From: Spirochaetaceae bacterium
GTDB taxonomy: Bacteria; Spirochaetota; Spirochaetia; DSM-27196; Alkalispirochaetaceae
Assembly (NCBI GenBank): GCA_007695175.1
Contig: REEH01000158.1
Coordinates: 1 to 41,677 of the forward strand
DNA length: 41,677 nt
Reading direction: 5' to 3'
In this document: piece by piece, positions 4,059-16,415 of the stretch
Position numbering within the stretch: position 1 is the stretch's first letter
How the letters are laid out: the number at the start of each line of letters is the position of its first letter
The notes under the pieces: model-generated
Database searches by the model: none
The model's input: only the letters and a program-made list of their open reading frames with translations
Told to the model about the DNA's origin: nothing
Made by a program: the position numbers and the translations under genes

Positions 4059-5441
4059 TTAGATCATCCCTGCCGGGTCGAGCAAATCACGGACCCGCTC
4101 TTCCGGAAGCACACCACTTTCCAGTACTACTTCCCGGATCGTCCGTTTCTCCCGGTACGCCTGGTAGGCAAGCTTCGTCGCTTTGTCGTACCCGATCTCC
4201 GTGGCCAGGGGTGTAACCAGAGCCAGGGACCACTCGATCCAGTACTCCAGCCGCTCCCGGTCCGCCTCGAGGCCATCGATCGCTTTCTCCGCCAGGACGC
4301 GGCACGTCTTTTCCAGCAGCTCCATCGAACTGAGCGTCTCGTGGGAGATGAGGGGGTTCATCATGTTGAGTTCCAGCGGTCCGTTCTGGCCCGCGATGGT
4401 GACGCTCACGGCCTTGCCGTTCACGTGAGCCGCCACCTGGATCACCATCTCCGGGATGACCGGATTGACCTTGCCCGGCATTATCGAACTGCCCGGCTGG
4501 AGACTGGGCAGAACGATTTCCCCCAGAGCTCCCCGGGGTCCGCTGGCGAGGAGCCTCAGATCGTTGGCGATTTTCATGAGACTCGTAGCGAGCGTATTCA
4601 GCGCCCCCATGAGCTCCACCTGCGCGTCTCTGCTCGCGATAGCCTCAAACTTGTTGGGAGCGCTCCGGAAGGGCAGGCCCGTCTCCCGGGCGATCGCCTG
4701 CGCCGTCTGTTCCGCAAACCCGGGGGCGCAGTTGATTCCCGTTCCCAGAGCGGTGCCTCCCAGGGCGAGCTCTTCCAGGTTGGCGGCGGTACCGGCGATG
4801 CGCCCCACCGCTTTCTCGATCTGCACGGCAAAGCCGGAGAACTCCTGGCCCAGCGTCATGGGTACCGCGTCCTGCAGGTGCGTTCGGCCCAGCTTCACCA
4901 GGTGCGCGAATTCCTCTTCCTTGCGCCGGAGGCTTGCAGCCAGCTGCCGCACGGCCGCCAGGAGCGGCTCCAGCTGCATCCGGTTGGCGATATGAATCGC
5001 CGTGGGGATCACGTCGTTGCTGGACTGCCCGCGATTCACGTGGTCGTTAGGGTGGACGGGACTGCGCGTGCCCCGGGCCTGCCCGAGGAGCTCGTTGGCG
5101 CGGTTGGCGATCAGCTCGTTGGCGTTCATGTTCCAGCTGGTGCCGCTGCCTGTCTGGAAGACATCGATCGGAAAGTGCCCGTCCCACTTGCCCCGCACCA
5201 CCTCGTCGGCGGCCCGGCTGATCGCCGAGGCCAGGTTCTCATCCAGCGTCCCCAGGGAAGCGTTGACCTCGGCGGCGTTTTTCTTGATCAGCCCCAGGGC
5301 ACGGATCATCGCCGGGTGGATCCGGAGAGGGGATACCCCGAAATTCTCCACCGCCCGCTGCGTCTGCGCTCCCCAGTACGCCCATTCCGGGAGGGAAACA
5401 GGACCCATCGAATCGGATTCTTCTCTCGTTTTGCTGCTCAT
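4059..5441 (-). CDS. fumC: Fumarate hydratase, class II
   Basis: Catalyses the reversible hydration of fumarate to L-malate in the citric acid cycle. At 460 residues it has the normal class II length (tetrameric, iron-free). Diagnostic segments are TGSGTSWNMNANE (about 98-109), the HPNDHVNRGQSSND region, GRTHLQD with catalytic-region His188, and the superfamily signature GSSIMPGKVNP (317-327) with the mobile-loop Ser. It lies head to head with the malate dehydrogenase gene across a 110-bp shared promoter region, so fumarase and the rest of the cycle are probably controlled together. The start at 5441 (ATG) has AAGGA about 10 nt upstream. Sister superfamily members (aspartase, argininosuccinate lyase) are less likely given the close match to FumC segments. 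Confidence 0.96.
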   Translation of the reverse strand: MSSKTREESDSMGPVSLPEWAYWGAQTQRAVENFGVSPLRIHPAMIRALGLIKKNAAEVNASLGTLDENLASAISRAADEVVRGKWDGHFPIDVFQTGSGTSWNMNANELIANRANELLGQARGTRSPVHPNDHVNRGQSSNDVIPTAIHIANRMQLEPLLAAVRQLAASLRRKEEEFAHLVKLGRTHLQDAVPMTLGQEFSGFAVQIEKAVGRIAGTAANLEELALGGTALGTGINCAPGFAEQTAQAIARETGLPFRSAPNKFEAIASRDAQVELMGALNTLATSLMKIANDLRLLASGPRGALGEIVLPSLQPGSSIMPGKVNPVIPEMVIQVAAHVNGKAVSVTIAGQNGPLELNMMNPLISHETLSSMELLEKTCRVLAEKAIDGLEADRERLEYWIEWSLALVTPLATEIGYDKATKLAYQAYREKRTIREVVLESGVLPEERVRDLLDPAGMI

Positions 5442-5551: not shown

Positions 5552-6526
5552 ATGGCAAATGTCGCAATTGTCGGTGCCGGGAACGTGGGAGCCAACACCG
5601 CGTTCTTCATAGCAGAGAGAAATATCGGAGACGTACTGCTTCACGACCTCCAGCACGGAGCTGCCGTGGGAAAGGCTCTGGATATGATGGAGGCCGCACC
5701 GATCCGCGGTTACCAGTTCGGGATCAATGCGGTGGAGTCGATCGAGGCTACCCGGGATTCCGCCATGATCATAATCGCCGCGGGGTCGGGGCGCGAACCG
5801 GGGATGCAGCGGGAGGATCTCTTTGCGCGGAATCTCCCGGTGGTGGACGCGCTGGCTCGGGACCTGCGCGGGTACGGGGGGGTGATTCTGATTGCTACCG
5901 AACCGGTGGATCTGATGGTGATGCGTTTCCGGGAGCAGTCGGGACTCAATGCGACGCGCGTTCTCGGGCTCGGGGGGGCGCTTAACTCCGCCCGGCTTGC
6001 CCATATTCTCAGCCGGCGGTTGCACATCACCACGGAGAATATCAGCGCTACCGTAATCGGTCGTCATGCGGGAGCGATGATACCGCTCCTGAACTATTCC
6101 CGGGTCAACGGGATCCCCGTGACGGTGCTTCTGGACGAGGAGGCGCAGGAACGGGTCGTTCAGGAAACGCGAAACGCCGGTGACCTCATCGTGGAGATGT
6201 CCCAGCGGGCCAGCAGCTACTACGGTCCCTCCGCGGTAGCGGCGGATATCGCCCAGGCTGTCCTCTGGGATACGAAGCGGATCATGCCCGTCTCATTTGT
6301 CTGGGAGGAACCGGGGCATTACGGTGTCTCCGGTGCGGCCATGAGCCTCCCGGCGGTACTGGGTGCGGCCGGGGTGGAACGGGTGCTGGAACCGGAGCTG
6401 AATCCGGAGCAGGTCCGGTCGCTGGACCAGTCCGCCGGGGATCTGCGGAAGATAATGGCCGGCGCGACCACGAACGGCGCGACTGCGAACGGCGCGACTG
6501 CGAACGGCAAGGAGCGGAAATCATGA
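5552..6526 (+). CDS. Malate dehydrogenase homologue with altered active site
   Basis: A 324-residue member of the LDH/MDH superfamily. The Rossmann motif GAGNVG (8-13) and the NAD-binding Asp32 are intact, as are the substrate arginines (Arg81 and Arg87 in GREPGMQRED; Arg148) and catalytic His172. However, the Asp that pairs with the His in active enzymes is Asn145 (LNSAR rather than LDSAR), the NP-motif Asn is Glu117 (TEPVD), and the GGHGD loop reads GRHAG. The C-terminus ends in a short repeat of ATANG units. The stop overlaps the ATG of the canonical malate dehydrogenase that follows. It could be a pseudoenzyme, a regulatory subunit of a mixed oligomer, or an oxidoreductase with another substrate. 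The family call is secure; activity is not. Confidence 0.88.
   Translation: MANVAIVGAGNVGANTAFFIAERNIGDVLLHDLQHGAAVGKALDMMEAAPIRGYQFGINAVESIEATRDSAMIIIAAGSGREPGMQREDLFARNLPVVDALARDLRGYGGVILIATEPVDLMVMRFREQSGLNATRVLGLGGALNSARLAHILSRRLHITTENISATVIGRHAGAMIPLLNYSRVNGIPVTVLLDEEAQERVVQETRNAGDLIVEMSQRASSYYGPSAVAADIAQAVLWDTKRIMPVSFVWEEPGHYGVSGAAMSLPAVLGAAGVERVLEPELNPEQVRSLDQSAGDLRKIMAGATTNGATANGATANGKERKS
6461..6508 (+). repeat. 15-bp tandem repeat encoding C-terminal ATANG units
   Basis: Three copies of a 15-bp unit (GGCGCGACTGCGAAC, the first with two changes) lie in frame at the end of the first malate dehydrogenase homologue. The period keeps the frame, so copy number can vary without breaking the overlap with the next gene. 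Confidence 0.85.
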
Positions 6527-7473
6527 GTGCCACACGGAGCAAGGTATCCGTCATCGGTGCCGGCAATGTCGGCGCCACGGCGGTCTACTATATCGCGGAG
6601 AAGAACATCGCCGATATCGTCATGGTGGACGTTGTCCCGGGGATGCCCCAGGGCAAGGCGGCGGATTTCATGCACGCCTCCCCCTCCCGGAACTACCACG
6701 TTTCGATTGCCGGTTCCAACGATTTTGAGGCGATCACCGACAGCGACGTGGTGGTGATGACCGCCGGGATGGCGCGCAAGCCCGGTATGGATCGCATGGA
6801 CCTGCTCAAGATCAACGTCAATATCGCCAAGCAGGCAGCGGACGCGATCCAGCGCTACGCTCCCAACGCGGTGGTGATTGCCGTGAGCAATCCCCTGGAC
6901 GTGATAGCCATGGTCTGCCTCCGGGAGTCGGGTTTTGCCCTGAAACGGGTCGTCGGGATGGCGGGAATCCTGGATTCCACGCGGTTCCAGTATTTTATCG
7001 CCCAGGCTCTGGGGGTCCTGCCCCGGGACGTGAGCGCCATGGTTCTGGGCGGACACGGGGACAGCATGGTCCCGCTGCCGCGATATACCTCGGTGGGCGG
7101 CTTTTCCCTGACGGAGCTGATGGCACCTGAAAAGATCGGAGAACTGGTGGATCGCACCCGTACGGGAGGGGCCGAGATCGTGGGCCACCTCAAGACGGGG
7201 AGCGCCTACTACGCACCCGCGGCGAGTACCGCCAAGATGGTGGAGGCGATTGTGAAGGACGAGAAGCGCCTCGTGGCGGCCAGCGCGTATCTCAGGGGTC
7301 AGTACGGATACCGGGATATCTTCCTGGGGGTTCCCGTGCTCCTGGGGCGTAACGGGGTGGAGGAGATATACGAGCTGGAACTCTCGGCGGAGGAGAAACT
7401 CGCTCTGGACGCCTCGGCGGAACAGGTGCGGCAGGGAGTGGTGACACTGGAGGAGATCTACGCCCCCGGTTGA
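6523..7473 (+). CDS. mdh: Malate dehydrogenase
   Basis: Oxidises L-malate to oxaloacetate with NAD. The 316 residues show the LDH-like MDH type: GAGNVG (12-17), NAD-selecting Asp36, MDH-type discriminating Arg85 and Arg91 in ARKPGMDRMD, Asn123 in VSNPLD, the catalytic pair Asp151/His178 (LDSTR and GGHGDSMVP), and Arg154. All key residues are present, in contrast to the gene just upstream, to which it is translationally coupled by an ATGA overlap (6523-6526). It is followed by a small hairpin before sdhA. The Arg at the discriminating position argues against lactate dehydrogenase. Confidence 0.95.
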   Translation: MSATRSKVSVIGAGNVGATAVYYIAEKNIADIVMVDVVPGMPQGKAADFMHASPSRNYHVSIAGSNDFEAITDSDVVVMTAGMARKPGMDRMDLLKINVNIAKQAADAIQRYAPNAVVIAVSNPLDVIAMVCLRESGFALKRVVGMAGILDSTRFQYFIAQALGVLPRDVSAMVLGGHGDSMVPLPRYTSVGGFSLTELMAPEKIGELVDRTRTGGAEIVGHLKTGSAYYAPAASTAKMVEAIVKDEKRLVAASAYLRGQYGYRDIFLGVPVLLGRNGVEEIYELELSAEEKLALDASAEQVRQGVVTLEEIYAPG

Positions 7474-7479
7474 GCATCG

Positions 7480-7505
7480 GTTCCGGGGAGGACCCCGTAA
7501 CTTTT
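7480..7505 (+). terminator. Weak terminator or attenuator between mdh and sdhA
   Basis: GTT-C-CGGGG pairs with CCCCG-T-AAC around an AGGA tetraloop (7480-7501), followed by only four T residues. The hairpin is good but the T-run is short, so partial read-through into sdhA is likely. It may set different levels for the malate dehydrogenases and the downstream operon. Confidence 0.45.
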
Positions 7506-7604
7506 GCTGGACGGGAGCGGGCGCAGGCACTACAGTAGAAAGAAAATCAGTCATATTCGGAACGGTTCAGAACGATCTGGTACGGCAATCGGGGAGGTAT
7601 GATC

Positions 7605-9335
7605 TTGGTACAGGAATTCGACGCAATTATCGTGGGCGCCGGCGGCGCCGGGCTGTATGCCGCTCTGGAGGCGAGCACGACAGCTCGCACCGCGGTGGTG
7701 AGCAAGCTCTACCCGCAGCGGAGTCATACCGGGGCCGCCCAGGGCGGGATCGGTGCGGCCCTGGGAAACGTGGAGGAGGACAGCCCGGAATGGCATGCTT
7801 TCGATACGGTCAAGGGCGGCGACTACCTGGTGGACCAGCAGGCCGCCAGGATTCTGGCGGAGGACGCCGTTCGTGCCGTGTATGATCTGGAGAACCGGGG
7901 CCTCCCTTTCAGCCGCCTGCCGGACGGCAAGATCGCGCAGCGCCGCTTCGGCGGGCATACGCACCACTTCGGCGAGGGTCCCGTTCACCGCAGCTGCTAC
8001 GCCGCGGACCGCACGGGCCACATGATTCTGCAGACGCTTTACCAGCAGTGCGTCAAGAACGACGTGCAGTTTTTTGACGAGTACCAGGTGGTGGATCTCC
8101 TCCTGGAGGGAACCACCGTGCGGGGCGTGGTTCTCTTCGAGCTGAAGACCGGCGAGCTTCACGTCTTCCGCGCCAAGGCGGTTCTCTTTGCCACCGGCGG
8201 TACGGGCCGGATGTTCAAGATTACTTCCAACGCCATATCCAACACCGGCGATGGCCCGGCAATCCTGGCGCGGGCGGGGATCCCCATGGAAGACATGGAG
8301 TTCTACCAGTTCCATCCCACGGGGATTCTCGGGATGGGTATCCTCATCACCGAGGGCGTCCGCGGTGAGGGGGGCATCCTCAAGAACAGCAAGGGCGAGC
8401 ACTTCATGGAAACCTACGCTCCCACGATGCTCGATCTGGCTCCCCGGGACATGGTGAGCCGGGCGATCATGACGGAGGTCCTGGCGGGGCGGGGGATCCG
8501 GGGTGACAGGAAGATCGATGACTACGTCTGGCTCGACGCGAGCCACCTGGGCCGGGACGTGGTGGAGCAGAAGATCCCCGATATCGCCGATTTCTGCCGA
8601 ACCTACCTGGGCGTCGACCCGGCGGAGAAGCCCATGCCCGTTCAGCCTACGGCTCACTACGCCATGGGCGGGATACCCACGGACGTGGACGGCCGCGTCG
8701 ATACGGGCAAGGTCGTCTACGAGGGGCTCTATGCCGCCGGTGAGGCGGCGTGCGTCTCCGTGCACGGCGCAAACCGGCTGGGCACCAACAGTCTCGTGGA
8801 CCTGATCGTGTACGGCCGTCGCGCGGGGCGGCATATCGCGGAGTACGTGAAAAACGCCTCCTCCCCCGCGGCGGGCGAGGCCGACGCCGATCGCGCCCGG
8901 GAGCAGCTCCAGAGGCTGCGCAACCGCAAGGGCGGGCGCCACGTGGGGCCGATCATGGAGCGCATGCAGGAAGTAATGATGGAGAAGGTCGGCGTCTACC
9001 GGGAGCAGAAGGAGATGGAAGCGGCCGCCGCGGACGTTCGGAAACTCCGGGAGGAGTTTCAGGAAGTGGCGGTGCAGGATCACGGCGCCGGGTTCAACTC
9101 GGAGGTACTCCAGATCATGGAGCTGGAAAACCTGCTGGATCTTTCCCTTATCACCGCCGAGAGCGCCGCCAACCGCACCGAGAGCCGGGGAGCGCACTCT
9201 CGCAAGGACTTCCCGGAACGGGACGACGAGACCTGGCTCAGACACACCATGGCCACGCTCAAGGGTGACCAGGTGGTGATCGACTACAAGCCGGTGGATG
9301 TGAGCATCTGGGAACCGAAACCGCGGACGTACTGA
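7605..9335 (+). CDS. sdhA: Succinate dehydrogenase flavoprotein subunit
   Basis: Oxidises succinate to fumarate on FAD and passes electrons to SdhB. Seen: FAD-binding [10 protein letters not shown] near the N-terminus, the SHTGAAQGG segment whose His is the covalent FAD attachment site in the family, FATGGTG, the active-site HPTG region, and the C-terminal [14 protein letters not shown] motif. Length about 576 residues is normal. Start choice: GGAGG (7593-7597) is only 1 nt from the ATG at 7599 but 7 nt from the TTG at 7605, so the TTG is favoured; the ATG would add two residues. No membrane-anchor gene lies upstream or downstream. It is followed after 16 bp by sdhB. Confidence 0.95.
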
Positions 9336-9351
9336 GGAGAGGACTGAACAA

Positions 9352-10122
9352 ATGAACGTTACCCTGGCGATCAAACGATTCAACCCCGAGACCGATTCGG
9401 AACCGCGGATCCAGAACTACACCGTGGAGGTACAGCCCACGGACCGGATTCTGGATGCGCTTATCAATATCACCCAGAACCAGGACGGAACGCTGGGCTA
9501 CCGCAGGAGCTGCGCCCACGGTGTGTGCGGCTCCGACGCGATGCGTATCAACGGCAAGGAGAAGCTGGCGTGCAAGACGCTCTTCCAGGACCTGGTGGAC
9601 CAGAACCCGGAAACCGGCAACGCCGCCGCCGCCCCCGCTACGATCGAGATAGAACCCCTGCGGCACATGGCGGTCCAGAAGGACCTGATGGTCGATCAGG
9701 GGCCCTTCTTCGCCAAGTTCCGCGCGGTGAAGCCCTACTTCGTACCCGCCGCGGCCACGCCGGAGCGGGGCGAGTACATCCAGTCCCCGGAGGAGCGGGA
9801 GCTCTTTGACGAGGCTACCAAGTGCATCAACTGCGCGGCGTGCTACTCCGCGTGCCCGATCCTGGACAAAAACCCCGACTTTATCGGCCCCCAGGCGATC
9901 GTTAATGCGGCGCGTTTCATTTTTGACAGCCGCGATGCCGGCCTGGAGCCGCGCCTGGACGTACTGGACACCAAAGATGGAGTGTGGCCCTGCGAGAGCC
10001 ACTTTGAGTGCACCCGGGTATGCCCACGGGATATCAAAATCACAAAACTGATCAACTTCACCAAGAGGGAGATCAAGAAGTACCGTGCAGCGCGCGGAGA
10101 GGAAACGGCGGAGCAGAAATGA
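9352..10122 (+). CDS. sdhB: Succinate dehydrogenase iron-sulfur subunit
   Basis: Carries electrons from the flavin to quinone through three clusters. The 256 residues show the N-terminal ferredoxin domain with Cys54, Cys59 and Cys74 and an Asp at position 62 (CGSDAM). Asp at this position occurs in E. coli SdhB, where FrdB has Cys, which favours a succinate dehydrogenase role. The C-terminal domain has CINCAACYSACP for the [4Fe-4S] cluster and CESHFECTRVCP for the [3Fe-4S]/[4Fe-4S] pair. Its TGA overlaps the ATG of sucC. The tail is lysine- and glutamate-rich. As a peripheral protein it needs an anchor, which is not encoded nearby. Confidence 0.95.
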   Translation: MNVTLAIKRFNPETDSEPRIQNYTVEVQPTDRILDALINITQNQDGTLGYRRSCAHGVCGSDAMRINGKEKLACKTLFQDLVDQNPETGNAAAAPATIEIEPLRHMAVQKDLMVDQGPFFAKFRAVKPYFVPAAATPERGEYIQSPEERELFDEATKCINCAACYSACPILDKNPDFIGPQAIVNAARFIFDSRDAGLEPRLDVLDTKDGVWPCESHFECTRVCPRDIKITKLINFTKREIKKYRAARGEETAEQK

Positions 10123-11258
10123 AAGTTCACGAATACCAGGCAAAAGAAATCTTCAAGGCCCGGGGTATCCCCGTGCAGGATCAGGCGGTGATCAGCGACG
10201 CCGGTGAAGCGGCCGCCGCGGCGAAGCGACTGGGCGGCAAGGTGGTGGTCAAGGCGCAGGTTCTCGTGGGAGGCCGTGGCAAGGCGGGGGGCGTCAAGTT
10301 GGCCGCAGACCCCGGAGAAGCGGAGCAGCATGCCCGGGCGATTCTCGGGATGGATATCAAGGGCGAGCGGGTGGAGAAGGTAATGATCGCCCCTACCGCG
10401 GATATCCTCAAGGAATACTACGTGGGTCTCATCATGGACCGGGCGAGCAAGAAGATCGTTCTCATGGTGACGAAGGAGGGGGGCGTCGACATCGAGGAGC
10501 TTGCCGTCTCGGACCCGGATAAGATCATCAAGTTTCCCATCGATATCGCGACGGGGCTGGATGCGCCGCCGGTGCGGAAGGACCTGGAAGGTATCCTTAC
10601 GGAGGTCTTCGGAAAGCCCGCGCTCGTGGCGCAGGCTCTGGAGACGGTAGGGAAGCTCTACGCCCTCTTCGTGGAGAAAGATGCCTCCCTGGTGGAGATC
10701 AACCCCTACGCCCTGGTGGACGAGAACACCCTGCTGGCGCTGGACGCCAAGATCAACTTCGATGACAACGCACTGTACAAGCACGATGATCTGGAGGCGA
10801 TGAAAAACCCCGAGGAGTACAGCCAGGACGAGATCGATGCCAAGGCGTACGGTCTCAGCTTCGTGAGCATGGACGGGGAGATCGGCTGCATCGTAAACGG
10901 CGCGGGACTCGCCATGGCCACGATGGATATCGTCAAGCTCTACGGCGGCGACCCGGCCAACTTTCTCGATGTGGGGGGCTCCAGCAACCCCGAGAAGGTG
11001 CTCCAGGCGATCCGGATTATTCTGCGCAACCCCAAAGTGAAGGCGATCCTGATAAACATATTCGGCGGGATTACCCGGTGTGACGACATCGCCCGGGGCA
11101 TCATCATGGCTACGGATCAGATAGAGATAAAGGTTCCCCTGGTGATCCGCCTGGTGGGTACAAACGAGGAAGAAGGGCGGAAACTTCTCGAGGCGAAGGG
11201 ATTCGTTGTGGGGAGCGACCTGAGCGAAGCGGTCCAGAACGTCGTGGCGCAACGGTAA
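10119..11258 (+). CDS. sucC: Succinyl-CoA synthetase, beta subunit (ADP/GDP-forming)
   Basis: Forms the nucleotide-binding half of the enzyme that converts succinyl-CoA to succinate with ATP or GTP synthesis. The 379-residue product begins MKVHEYQAKEIF, the family's typical N-terminus, and shows the ATP-grasp motif VVKAQVLVGGRGKAGGV, VEINPYALV (metal and nucleotide site) and the C-terminal CoA-ligase domain (GSSNPEKV, NIFGGITRCDDIA). The ATG overlaps the sdhB stop by 4 nt; a longer in-frame extension inside sdhB is not part of the protein. It pairs with sucD 23 bp downstream. Confidence 0.97.
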   Translation: MKVHEYQAKEIFKARGIPVQDQAVISDAGEAAAAAKRLGGKVVVKAQVLVGGRGKAGGVKLAADPGEAEQHARAILGMDIKGERVEKVMIAPTADILKEYYVGLIMDRASKKIVLMVTKEGGVDIEELAVSDPDKIIKFPIDIATGLDAPPVRKDLEGILTEVFGKPALVAQALETVGKLYALFVEKDASLVEINPYALVDENTLLALDAKINFDDNALYKHDDLEAMKNPEEYSQDEIDAKAYGLSFVSMDGEIGCIVNGAGLAMATMDIVKLYGGDPANFLDVGGSSNPEKVLQAIRIILRNPKVKAILINIFGGITRCDDIARGIIMATDQIEIKVPLVIRLVGTNEEEGRKLLEAKGFVVGSDLSEAVQNVVAQR

Positions 11259-11281
11259 GGGAGCGATAAGGGAGCAGCAGC

Positions 11282-12166
11282 ATGAGTATTCTTATAGATG
11301 AAAAAACCAACGTCCTTGTGCAGGGAGTGACCGGCCGGGACGGATCGTTCCACGCGCGCCAGATGGTGCAGGACGGCACCCGGGTGGTGGCGGGAGTCAC
11401 TCCCGGCAAGAGCGGGCAGAAACTGGACGAGATTCCCGTGTACGGCACGGTGTCGGAGGCGCGGAAGGACCACCGAATCGACGCGACGGTGATTTTTGTG
11501 CCCGCCCGCTTTGCCGCGGCGGCGGTGAGAGAGGCGGCCGATGCGGACATACCCCTGATCATTACGATCACCGAGGGGGTGCCCGTCCTGGAGATGCTCC
11601 AGGCGTACCACTACGTCAGGTCCCGGGGGCTGCGCATGATCGGCCCCAACTGTCCCGGTCTGGTGAGCCCCGGTAAATGCAAGATAGGGATCATGCCCTA
11701 CCATATCCACAAACCCGGCAATATCGGGGTGATCTCCCGTTCCGGCACGCTCACCTACGAGGTTGTCTACAATCTCACCAACACCGGTCTGGGTCAGTCC
11801 ACCTGCATCGGAATCGGCGGCGACCCCGTCATCGGCACCAGCTTCATCGATGCGCTGGAGCTCTTCCAGGCGGATCCGGACACTGCCGGAGTGGTGGTGA
11901 TCGGTGAGATAGGCGGTGATGAGGAGGAAAAGGCGGCGGAGTTTGTCCGGACACGTATGAACAAAGCGGTGGTGGGATTCATCTCCGGCAGGACCGCGCC
12001 CCCGGGCAAGCGGATGGGTCACGCCGGGGCGATCATCTCCGGCGGGACCGGCACGCCCGAGGCGAAGGTGCAGGCTTTTGAATCAGCCGGGATACCGGTG
12101 GCGCGCAAGCCTGATGAGATACCGGCGCTGATGAAAGCGAAGCTCCAGGCGGGAGAGCCGCGCTAA
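11282..12166 (+). CDS. sucD: Succinyl-CoA synthetase, alpha subunit
   Basis: Binds CoA and carries the phosphohistidine intermediate. The 294 residues contain the CoA-binding Rossmann segment [27 protein letters not shown], and the active-site region [14 protein letters not shown] with the phosphorylated His. Length and order are standard. GGGAG 8-9 nt before the ATG is a good ribosome binding site. Only 2 bp separate its stop from sucA, so the succinyl-CoA producer and consumer are cotranscribed. Confidence 0.97.
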
Positions 12167-12168
12167 CG

Positions 12169-15120
12169 ATGGAACTGGGCAATGCCGGGTACGCGGAGGA
12201 GCTGTACGAAATCTGGCTGGAGAATCCCCGGGATGTACCGCCGGAGTGGCGCGCCTGGTTTGAGTGGTTGAGTCGGGAGGATGAGGCGAACGCCGCGAAA
12301 ACCCCTGCCCTGAACGAGCTTCCCCCTGCGGTGGTGCCCTCCGCGTCGGGCTGTGACGACGCGGAGCACGTACGCAAGCAGGCGGCGGTGGACAATCTGC
12401 TCCGCTCCTACCGCGAGGCGGGGGCGATCTATGCCGACACCAACCCGCTCGGCACCTACGAGACGCCGGAGATGCGCTACATGCGGATCACCGTGGAGGG
12501 GGTTGTGGACCGCCTCTCGCCCGAGGCGTGGGGCCTGGGCGATTCGGACATGGAAACACCCTTCGAGACGCGCTACTTTGAACCGAGTCCCGCACCGCTG
12601 AGGGAAATCATCGCCCGTGCCCGGGAGACGTACCTTGCTCATCTCGGCACGGAGTTCATGCACATCTACAACTACTCCATGCGCAGCTGGCTCCTGAAAA
12701 GGATAGAGCGGGAGCAGCACCGCCGCGACTGGCTGCCGGAACAGAAGATCCGCTTCCAGAAGGACCTGATCAAGGCGGAGGAGTTTGAACACTTCGTACA
12801 CAGGAACTTCATAGGGCAGAAGCGCTTCAGTCTGGAGGGCGGCGAGGGACTGATCCCGGCACTGCACTACCTGATTTACAGCGCCGCCGATCACAATGTG
12901 AAGGAGATCGTGATCGGGATGGCTCACCGGGGGCGGCTCAACGTCTTCACCAACGCGATGCGAAAACCGGCGGTGGAGACCTTTGCCAAGTTCATCGACG
13001 CGGAGCAGCCGCACCAGTACGGCGGCACGGGGGATGTGAAGTACCACCTGGGCCACAGCTTTGATTACGTGGAAAAGGCCACGGGGCGACGTATCCACAT
13101 CTCCCTGGTGGCTAACCCCAGCCATCTGGAGGCGGTGGATCCCGTGGTGGAGGGCAAGGCCCGGGGCACGCAGCGGCGCTATGGGGACTTCAATCGCAAG
13201 AAGGTTGTGCCGGTGCTGGTGCACGGCGACGCCGCCTTCAGCGGCCAGGGAGTGGTAGCGGAGACGTTCAATCTGAGCCAGCTGAAGGGGTACCGTACGG
13301 GTGGAACGATCCATATCATCGTAAACAACCAGATCGGCTTCACCACCGCCTCCCGCGATTCGCGGAGCACCTTCTTTGCTACGGACGTGGCCAAGGGAAT
13401 CCAGGTCCCGATTTTCCACGCCAACGGGGACAACCCCGAGGCGATCGTGCGCGCCATCGACCTGGCCATGCGGTGGCGGCAGAAGTTCGGTTACGACGCG
13501 GTGGTGGATATCATCTGTTATCGACGCCTGGGACACAACGAGGCGGACGAGCCCTCCTTCACCCATCCCATAATGTACAAGATGATCAAGGACCACGAGA
13601 GTGCCCCCACGCTTTACGGCCGGAAGCTCGCCACGGACGGGGTCTGGACGCTTGAGGAGCAGGAGGCGTTTCGCGAGCAGTACCGGAGCGTGCTCAGGGA
13701 GCAGCTGGAGATGGCCCGCTCCGGTTCGTACAAATCGACCACGGAGGACTTCCTGGAAGCCGGCGAGTGGACCCGCTTCCAGCGTACCTACTCCTTTGAT
13801 CCCGTCGTTACCGGCGTGGATCGGGAGCGGCTGGCCCGGCTGGGGGAGGCTCTTACCACCGTGCCGGAGGCGTTCCATCTCAATTCCAAGGTGCAGCGTC
13901 TGGTGAAGGACCGGCGCGGGATGATCGAGAGCGGGGAGGGAATCGACTGGGGATTCGCGGAGACGCTATCCATGGCATCCCTCCTGGAGGAGAGGTACTC
14001 GATCCGGCTGAGCGGGGAGGATTCCGGCCGCGGGACCTTCAGCCATCGTCACGCCGAGTGGTGGGACGTGCACGCCGCCAGGCCCGTCTACTATACGCCG
14101 CTCAAGCACGTGGCCCCGGAGCAGGGCACCTTCTCCGTCTATGACAGCCCCCTCTCCGAGTTCAGTGTTCTCGGGTTTGAGTACGGCTACTCGATCGCGC
14201 AGCCTGATATCCTCGTGATATGGGAGGCGCAGTTCGGGGACTTCGTGAACGGCGCCCAGGTGATCATCGACCAGTTTATCTCCTCCAGCGAGAGTAAGTG
14301 GTTCCGGTACTCCGGACTGGTGATGCTTCTGCCCCACGGGTACGAGGGGCAGGGGCCGGAGCACTCCAGCGCGCACCTGGAGCGCTTCCTGCAGCTCTGC
14401 GCGGACAACAACATGCAGATTGTAAACCCCACGGAGCCGGCCCAGATCTTTCACCTTCTGCGGCGGCAGCTCCTGCAGCCCTTCCGGAAGCCCCTGATCG
14501 TGATGTCCCCCAAGAGCCTGCTCCGGCACAAGGAAGCCAGATCGTCGCTGGCGGAGCTGGAGAGCGGTTCCTTCCGCACGGTGATCGCGGACCCGCGCGT
14601 GGCCGCCCGGGACGATGCAGCCCCGGATGCCCCAAAAGCAAACGCCGCCGGCACGCCGGGTGCGGTGAGAACCCTCATCTTCTGTTCCGGCAAGGTATAC
14701 TATGATCTGGACGCGCGACGGGTGGAGCTTGGCGCGGGGGACACGGCCATCGTCCGGATCGAGCAACTCTATCCCTGGCCGGAGGAGGCGATACGCAGGG
14801 CGATCGCGGGCTACGGCAAACCGGAACGCGTCCTCTGGGTACAGGAGGAGAGCCGCAACCGCGGCGCCTGGCGGTTCGTCCAGAACCGGCTGGCGGAGAT
14901 CATGACGCTGGAGAACATCGAGTACGTGGGTCGCGCACCCAGCCCCTCTCCCGCCACCGGCTCCTACCGGGAGCACCTGGCGGAACTGGAAGCATTTCTC
15001 ACGGAAGCGATCCCGCTCCCGCGGAAGGCAGCACCCGCTGCCGCCGCCGGTGAGCGCTCCCCCGGGCGCGGAGGGAAACGCCCCCGGGGCAAACAGAAGA
15101 CAGGAGATACCCTGGTATGA
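12169..15120 (+). CDS. sucA: 2-Oxoglutarate dehydrogenase E1 component
   Basis: Thiamine-diphosphate-dependent decarboxylase of the 2-oxoglutarate dehydrogenase complex. The 983-residue protein has the short E1 N-terminal segment for E2 docking ([15 protein letters not shown], 6-20), the dehydrogenase domain with MAHRGRLN (about residue 250) and the ThDP motif [14 protein letters not shown] (about 352) extending to NNQIGFTT, then the transketolase pyrimidine domain ([15 protein letters not shown]) and C-terminal domain ([12 protein letters not shown]-like QEESRN). An Ala-rich linker precedes the last domain and the tail is basic, both slightly longer than usual. It overlaps sucB by ATGA. Confidence 0.97.
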
Positions 15121-16415
15121 AGCAGAATGTGGAAGTGCCGCAGGTGGGAGAATCAGTAACGAGCGGAATACTGGCCGCCTGGTTCAGGCAGAACGGCGAG
15201 CTGGTTCAGGAGGGAGAAGACCTTTTTGAACTGGAGACGGACAAGGCTACCATGCCCGTACCCGCACCGGCGAGTGGAGTGCTCACCATCAGGGTGGAAA
15301 CCGACACGGAGGTGGAGGTGGGCGCCGTGGTGGGCGAGATCGACACAGCGGCGGCGGCCCCCGCGACGGAAGCCGCCGGCGACGAAGCCCCCGGCGAAAA
15401 ACCAGCCGGGGCTGCAGCTCCGCCCCCGCTCCCTGTCTCTCCGGCGGTACGACGCATCCTTGAGGAACAGAGTCTCGATGCGGGTACCGTGACAGCCGCG
15501 GTCACGCCCAGTGGAAAGGATGGTCGTCTCACCAAGGGAGACGTGGAGGAGTACCTGCGGGGCGCCGCATCGGGAGGCCCCGGGGCGAGCGCTCCGGGCG
15601 CGGGTGCGACGCCAGGTGCGGCCGCCGCGCCATCCCCCGGCGCGGTCCGTCCGACCCCCGGCGCGGTCCGTCCGGCCGCCCCGGCTCCCGGCTCCCCTCC
15701 CGCGACCCCGGCCCCCGGTACGCAGGAGCGGAAGAAGATGACAACCCTGCGCCGCCGGATCGCGGAGAACCTGGTCCGGAGCAGGCAGGAATCGGCTCAC
15801 CTTTCCACCTTCAACGAGGTGGACATGAGTGCGGTGATGCAGATCCGTACCACCTACAGGGATCGCTTCGAGAAGCAGCACGGCGTTCGCCTCGGCTTCA
15901 TGAGCTTCTTCGTCAAGGCAGCGGAGCGTTCGCTCCGGGAGTACCCCGCGGTAAATGCATTCGTGGACGGTGAGGATATCGTCTACAACCATTTCCAGAA
16001 CATCGGGGTGGCGATCTCCACCGATCGGGGGCTCCTCGTTCCGGTGATCCGCGACGTGGAGAATCTGGGATTCGCCGCCATCGAGGGAACCATTCTCGAT
16101 TTCGCCACCCGGGCAAAGGAGAAGCGGATCATGCCGGACGAGTTTACCGGCGGCACCTTCACGATCACGAACGGCGGTGTCTTTGGAAGCATGCTCTCAA
16201 CCCCGATCCCGAGTCCGCCCCAGACGGCGGTACTGGGAATGCACTCCATCCAGAAACGGGCGGTGGTGGTGAACGATGAGATCGTGATCCGCCCCATGAT
16301 GTATCTGGCCCTCACCTACGATCACCGCGTGATCGACGGACGGGAGGCGATCGGCTTCCTGAACAGCATCAAGAATCGGATCGAGGATCCGACGCAGTTG
16401 CTCCTGGAGTTGTGA
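15117..16415 (+). CDS. sucB: Dihydrolipoamide succinyltransferase E2 component
   Basis: Core of the 2-oxoglutarate dehydrogenase complex; transfers succinyl from lipoate to CoA. One lipoyl domain (1-78) has the lipoylated Lys43 in ETDKATMP. A peripheral subunit-binding domain lies at about 107-147 ([22 protein letters not shown]), followed by an Ala/Pro/Gly linker of about 55 residues. The catalytic domain carries His403 and Asp407 in YDHRVIDG. At 432 residues with one lipoyl domain it is typical of SucB; the neighbours sucA and lpd settle the substrate. The linker contains an in-frame 21-bp tandem duplication. Confidence 0.96.
15634..15675 (+). repeat. 21-bp tandem repeat in the E2 linker
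   Basis: The unit starting CCCCCGGCGCGGTCCGTCCG occurs twice in succession (15634 and 15655) and encodes [14 protein letters not shown]. It is a recent in-frame duplication in a flexible linker where length change is tolerated. Confidence 0.85.

Follow-up and report, generated by a model that had tools for sequence, protein, structure and literature searches.

Descriptions of bacterial malate dehydrogenase (MDH) present the enzyme as a simple homo-oligomer. The locus considered here encodes two MDH-family proteins in succession, the first of which is altered at several active-site positions, and it raises the question of what such a protein does beside a canonical enzyme. The locus lies in a 41,677-nucleotide stretch of contig REEH01000158.1 from a Spirochaetaceae bacterium, the whole of which is termed the window below. 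The product of the first gene, mdhA, is probably a subunit dedicated to partnering a canonical MDH in a heteromeric enzyme, and the finding extends beyond window positions 5552-6526 to a widespread gene pair.

Two MDH genes among TCA cycle genes

The genes of the locus are arranged as follows:

4059..5441, minus strand: fumC/aspA-type lyase, divergent neighbour upstream of mdhA
5552..6526, plus strand: mdhA (subunit A, P0001), MDH-fold paralogue of 324 aa with Glu117, Asn145, and GRHAG
6523..7473, plus strand: mdhB (subunit B, P0002), canonical LDH-like MDH of 316 aa
7599..10122, plus strand: sdhA and sdhB, TCA operon, downstream of mdhB
10116..16415, plus strand: sucC, sucD, sucA, and sucB, TCA operon

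The mdhA stop and the mdhB start share the letters ATGA, a 4 nt overlap that bears out the overlapping MDH genes of the original prediction. Both products score above the cut-offs for Ldh_1_N and Ldh_1_C (Pfam) and for the NCBIfam malate dehydrogenase model PRK06223, to which A belongs with 289.8 bits against a cut-off of 283. The two proteins are 35% identical. AF2 models have a mean pLDDT of 92.2 for A and 93.2 for B, and the model of A aligns best with the tetrameric LDH-like MDH of Chloroflexus aurantiacus (Z 41.7). No A-type protein was recognised among solved structures; the PDB entries closest in sequence are canonical MDHs and LDHs, and the top alignments contain the NP motif. The window belongs to a Spirochaetota MAG, and among named records that contain mdhA the closest, a Spirochaeta sp. 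MAG, shows 78% identity.

The fumC/aspA-type neighbour is retained at most Spirochaetota loci. Beyond the suc genes of the window come lpd-like and citrate-synthase-like genes, as judged by inspection of the sequence. Between mdhB and sucC (window 7473-10122), no sdhC or sdhD gene for a membrane anchor was noticed. The C-terminal tail of A (window 6458-6523) carries a short repeat, TTNGATANGATANG, and relatives of A are without it.

The active site of A and its history

In LDH numbering, the residues of interest are Asn140, Asp168, His195, and arginines 102, 109, and 171 (PMC4109310). In mdhA, the first three correspond to the following codons:

5900..5902, plus strand: codon GAA, Glu117 of A, replaces the NP-motif Asn (Asn140)
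5984..5986, plus strand: codon AAC, Asn145 of A, replaces the catalytic Asp (Asp168)
6065..6067, plus strand: codon CAT, His172 of A, the retained catalytic His (His195), in GRHAG

The original prediction described the first protein as keeping the NAD site, the three substrate arginines, and His172 while carrying Asn145, Glu117, and GRHAG, and the second as canonical at the catalytic positions. All of this is borne out by the sequence. Window A retains GxGxxG, D32, R81, R87, R148, and H172, and window B reads SNP, DSTR, and GGHGD. Window A accordingly lacks the Asn140 and the complete Asp168/His195 pair that mark a canonical MDH, and keeps only the His.

Across clade A, the NAD site is preserved, with G8, G10, G13, and D32 invariant, and so are the substrate arginines R81, R87, and R148 (equivalent to 102, 109, and 171; 94%, 87%, and 100%). 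Position 117 is Glu in 97% of 73 A proteins and Asn in 100% of B proteins and lone MDHs. The pattern TEPVD was among those searched for, which could have made this conservation an artefact; protein and profile searches that use no pattern give the same result. Asn140 and Gly236 are both first-shell residues (PMC4109310), and in clade A the second of these, which by our own mapping is A209, is replaced by Ala in 93%. R219 is a candidate salt-bridge partner of E117, and is found in only 87% of A proteins.

Position 145 is far less uniform. It is Asp in 76% of A proteins, including 39 of 52 diverse relatives, Ser or Thr in Opitutia, Acidobacteria, and Myxococcales, and His in one family of the window's order, where position 172 is Asp or Asn. 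Within the A proteins, the dyad is swapped in L021 and L028, which carry His where the Asp is expected and Asp where the His is expected, and L049 has His/Asn. His172 is present in 94% of A proteins (48 of the 52 relatives keep it and 4 have lost it). On the A tree, position 117 changed once, R148 never, position 145 five times, and position 172 three times. These counts indicate that the Asn-to-Glu change at 117 is the signature of the A family and that the Asp was lost later, more than once. Besides Glu117, the altered His motif is the other change that runs through the whole family. The claim that the lost catalytic Asp defines this protein is therefore not upheld, since position 145 takes the states D, N, H, S, and T. 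Similarly, of the two residues whose conservation in tandem pairs was to be checked, Glu117 is conserved and Asn145 is not, being confined to three genomes of the window's genus. Close homologues with the canonical residues had been named as a point against the proposal, and these exist for the Asp, which the two other clear congeners (L008 and L009) keep, but not for the Asn.

It had also been considered that Asn145 might be a sequencing slip or a strain-specific change. This is rejected, because N145 also occurs in independent genomes of the genus, at 77–78% and 66–67% identity. Between the three N145 genomes, dN/dS is 0.15–0.19 for A and about 0.05 for B, values obtained by the Nei-Gojobori method that are approximate because dS is above or near 1. 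A is under purifying selection after loss of the Asp, as had been proposed, and it combines lost catalytic residues with selection on the rest of the protein in the manner of a pseudoenzyme or non-canonical subunit.

A redundant duplicate, decaying locally in the window's genus after the Asp was lost, would account for the restriction of N145 to three genomes and for the faster evolution of A, whose distances are about 2-fold those of B. The open frame and the dN/dS values contradict decay and rule out a decaying gene; together with retention of the pair across phyla and residues that are invariant specifically in A, they make this explanation highly improbable.

A free-standing dehydrogenase for another substrate deserves more weight. 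In this case, A would act on a different compound, for instance another dicarboxylic 2-hydroxy acid or an imino acid, its specificity being set by Glu117 and the altered pocket. The carboxylate-binding arginines and His172 are mostly retained, most A proteins keep Asp and His, which would fit a catalytic role, and the genes stand in a TCA context. A second, strongly diverged tandem MDH-like pair, A'/B', is found in the same genome (L035:12032-13923, equal to G000:C82:20031-21922, with the tandem itself also given as G000:C82:20112-21856) and in seven genomes of two genera overall, with molybdenum-hydroxylase genes adjoining it in two of the seven. A' retains Glu117, Asp145, Arg148, and His172 in 7/7 sequences at identities down to 47%, while B' has lost the Asn, Asp, Arg, and His, which become Q, Y/H, W, and L/P/S. 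GxGxxG is still present in B', as is an aromatic residue at the position of Phe18/Tyr22 discussed below. Because A' keeps the dyad where B' has lost its residues, the A-type site may still do chemistry in some lineages. However, the Asp is gone from the window protein and several other lineages, and His172 from 4/52, yet purifying selection persists. In addition, a free-standing enzyme would have no need to sit always beside one MDH clade, and conservation in A concentrates in the dimer interface rather than in the active-site loops (see the next section). The enzyme for a different 2-hydroxyacid that was originally offered as one possibility is thus unlikely, although it draws on the Asp and His that most relatives keep.

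Pairing of A with B and the dimer interface

A total of 75 distinct pairs were found in at least six phyla, and in all of them A precedes B, with both genes on the same strand. The gap from A to B is −8 to 145 nt in 74 pairs and 1148 nt in one. In that one, from a Spirochaetota genome, a 314-aa ORF (L214:7688-8629) separates mdhA and mdhB; this is the sole pair interrupted by a gene. Five further A genes are without a complete B, either at the end of a contig or locus or next to a frameshifted B. No A was found on a complete contig without B, so that among these 75 pairs the two are obligately co-encoded.

In a protein search of 60 relatives, most genomes from the window's order proved to have the A-B tandem. 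A scan of named genomes yielded A relatives in records of Spirochaetota, Desulfobacteraceae, Opitutia, Acidobacteria, Krumholzibacteriota, and Myxococcales. Whole-genome samples were drawn without motif bias from a Desulfobacterota class, Acidobacteriota, and Opitutia, in addition to the window's order. A occurs in 3/117, 3/119, and 1/94 genomes of the first three, respectively, with B adjacent each time, as is also the case for every A in the window's order, and the MDH matches of the remaining matched genomes are unpaired with any A. One pair (L216; G406:C1) is in a single-contig genome of 5,197,905 bases.

The pair lies near citrate synthase in Acidobacteria and Myxococcales. In Desulfobacteraceae, it adjoins genes that by sequence inspection resemble 2-oxoglutarate:ferredoxin oxidoreductase or isocitrate dehydrogenase. 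In Opitutia, its neighbours are gat genes. The TCA link of the pair is common, though not apparent at every locus.

In a 135-protein tree, which was a quick build with moderate support in places, all 53 paired B proteins form one clade, 17 lone MDHs form another, and A is a separate large group. The early-branching A proteins L143 and L148, which keep GGHH and the Asp, are placed near the base of the B side. The distances among A proteins mirror those among B proteins (r 0.81 over 52 pairs; 0/2000 permutations as high). Because the Desulfobacteraceae pairs sit inside the Spirochaetota pairs in both the A and the B trees, these trees suggest that the two genes moved between groups as one unit. 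Homodimers of A and homodimers of B, linked only transcriptionally, would also yield conserved tandem genes.

The minimal catalytic unit of LDH-like MDHs is the AB dimer (PMC4250060). In the Plasmodium falciparum enzyme (PfMDH), helices 1, 2, 5, and 8 build the AB interface, which has a pair of Glu18 residues at its core, and inactive PfMDH subunits join the wild-type assembly (PMC5919072). By profile and structural alignments, PfMDH numbering applies 1:1 from the start for A and with an offset of 4 for B, so that Glu18 corresponds to Phe18 of A and Tyr22 of B. The relevant positions in the window are:

5603..5608, plus strand: Phe18-Phe19 of A, helix alpha1, dimer-interface core; F18 in 100% of clade A
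5690..5692, plus strand: Glu47 of A, helix alpha2; E in 98% of A
6586..6588, plus strand: Tyr22 of B, in helix alpha1, corresponding to Phe18 of A; Tyr in 73/75 paired B proteins
6673..6675, plus strand: codon CAC, His51 of B, in helix alpha2, corresponding to Glu47 of A; His in 72/75 paired B proteins

Columns of A that are at least 95% conserved occupy 15 of 30 positions in helices alpha1 and alpha2 compared to 22 of 269 elsewhere (OR 11.2, p 6e-8). Circular shifts of the helix segments equal this value in 2/298 cases, and removal of redundancy changes the enrichment little. Adding helix 141-157 together with one or the other candidate for helix 8 gives an OR of 5.4 or 3.9. The same test gives an OR of only 0.79 in B of the same genomes and 0.76 in lone MDHs. 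In all three sets, alpha1 and alpha2 contribute to the NAD site, so NAD binding fails to explain the excess in A.

Across the 75 pairs, Phe18 is present in 73 A proteins and Glu47 in 74. F18 of A occurs together with Y22 of B in 72 pairs, and E47 of A with H51 of B in 71. Among lone MDHs, Y22 is found in 2/83 and H51 in 0/83; the set of 20 lone Spirochaetota MDHs rules out that these residues are simply a Spirochaetota trait. Beside the mobile-loop arginine, B has D90 and M92 in place of the S and D of most lone MDHs. The full set of differences between B and lone MDHs shows no clear enrichment in the interface helices, which by hand count hold about 8 of 25, and for this reason the argument is confined to specific positions. 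The residues are fixed in both A and B and give no covariation signal, and because they hardly vary within pairs, the B differences may in part be clade inheritance. Residues Y22, H51, D90, and M92 of B are nevertheless what would be expected if B had adapted to A, and interface specialisation at matching positions is seen, at the level of sequence, in both partners.

A purely structural or chaperone-like partner, which stabilises B or tethers it to, for instance, TCA enzymes and has no regulatory ligand, would fit both the interface conservation and the lost catalytic residues. MDH heterocomplexes that serve localisation are known in yeast, in which Mdh2 travels on Mdh3 (PMC7758625). The nucleotide motif, D32, R148 (100%), and R81 (94%) are kept beyond what a scaffold needs, however, and this alternative is quite improbable.

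The reading preferred here remains that of a dedicated partner subunit. A and B would form an A:B dimer across the alpha1/alpha2 interface, with Phe18 of A packed against Tyr22 of B and Glu47 of A near His51 of B. Because LDH-like MDHs are built as dimers of dimers, the assembly would probably be A2B2. Such a complex is plausible on physical grounds, because the AB dimer is the minimal unit and mixed MDH assemblies occur with PfMDH and in yeast. Malate/oxaloacetate chemistry would be done by B. Given its retained NAD site, R148, and R81, A would most likely bind NAD(H) and a dicarboxylate but not turn them over normally, and would tune the activity of B. The conservation pattern and the strict pairing fit the earlier proposal of a pseudoenzyme or subunit that assembles with the active MDH, while assembly and regulation by A are what we infer from sequence.

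Significance and comparison with known systems

No description of such an A/B MDH pair was found in open-access literature text, and as far as that text shows, this widespread MDH gene pair is previously undescribed. Since both genes match MDH family models, annotation likely hides the pair, and copy counts are likely to mislead metabolic models. A fuller reading, to which we give somewhat less than even confidence, is an obligate two-subunit bacterial MDH, spread over at least six phyla, in which the A site, remade by the replacement of Asn with Glu, is a sensor of NAD(H) and a dicarboxylate that sets TCA flux. If true, a two-gene MDH with a non-canonical subunit would give the TCA cycle an extra control point and bacteria a counterpart of the regulatory subunits found in NAD-isocitrate dehydrogenase. 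It would also be a clear case of an enzyme that became a partner subunit, with intermediates on one tree: Asp kept; Asp changed to N, S, T, or H; and the His/Asp swap.

The tetrameric LDH-like MDHs of C. aurantiacus (1UXI/4CL3) and P. falciparum (5NFR) resemble A in length, in fold (Z 41.7 and 39.5), and in having the nucleotide-binding motif and the three substrate arginines. They are homo-oligomers with Asn140 and Asp168, in contrast to the Glu140 of A and, here, its Asn168, and A differs from them in always being accompanied by a second MDH gene. UEVLD, an E2 variant with an LDH domain, is similar to A in that an LDH-fold domain is found in a protein considered a non-enzyme; unlike A, it is a eukaryotic fusion protein with no obligate LDH partner gene.

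The HicDH clade, like A, is a diverged member of the LDH/MDH superfamily, and its specificity has changed. HicDHs keep Arg109, Asp168, Arg171, and His195 (PMC4109310), whereas A alters Asn140 and often Asp168, the equivalent of which is Asn in window A. The yeast Mdh2/Mdh3 heterocomplex shares with A/B the assembly of two MDH paralogues (PMC7758625), but both of its members are active enzymes and its purpose is peroxisomal import. Finally, eukaryotic IDH3, as described in PMC7752914 and PMC5282582, is a TCA dehydrogenase in which alpha is joined by the paralogous beta and gamma; one subunit is catalytic and the others serve regulation, as would be the case for B and A. It has a different fold and catalyses a different reaction, and regulation is proven in IDH3, while for A/B it is a putative role.
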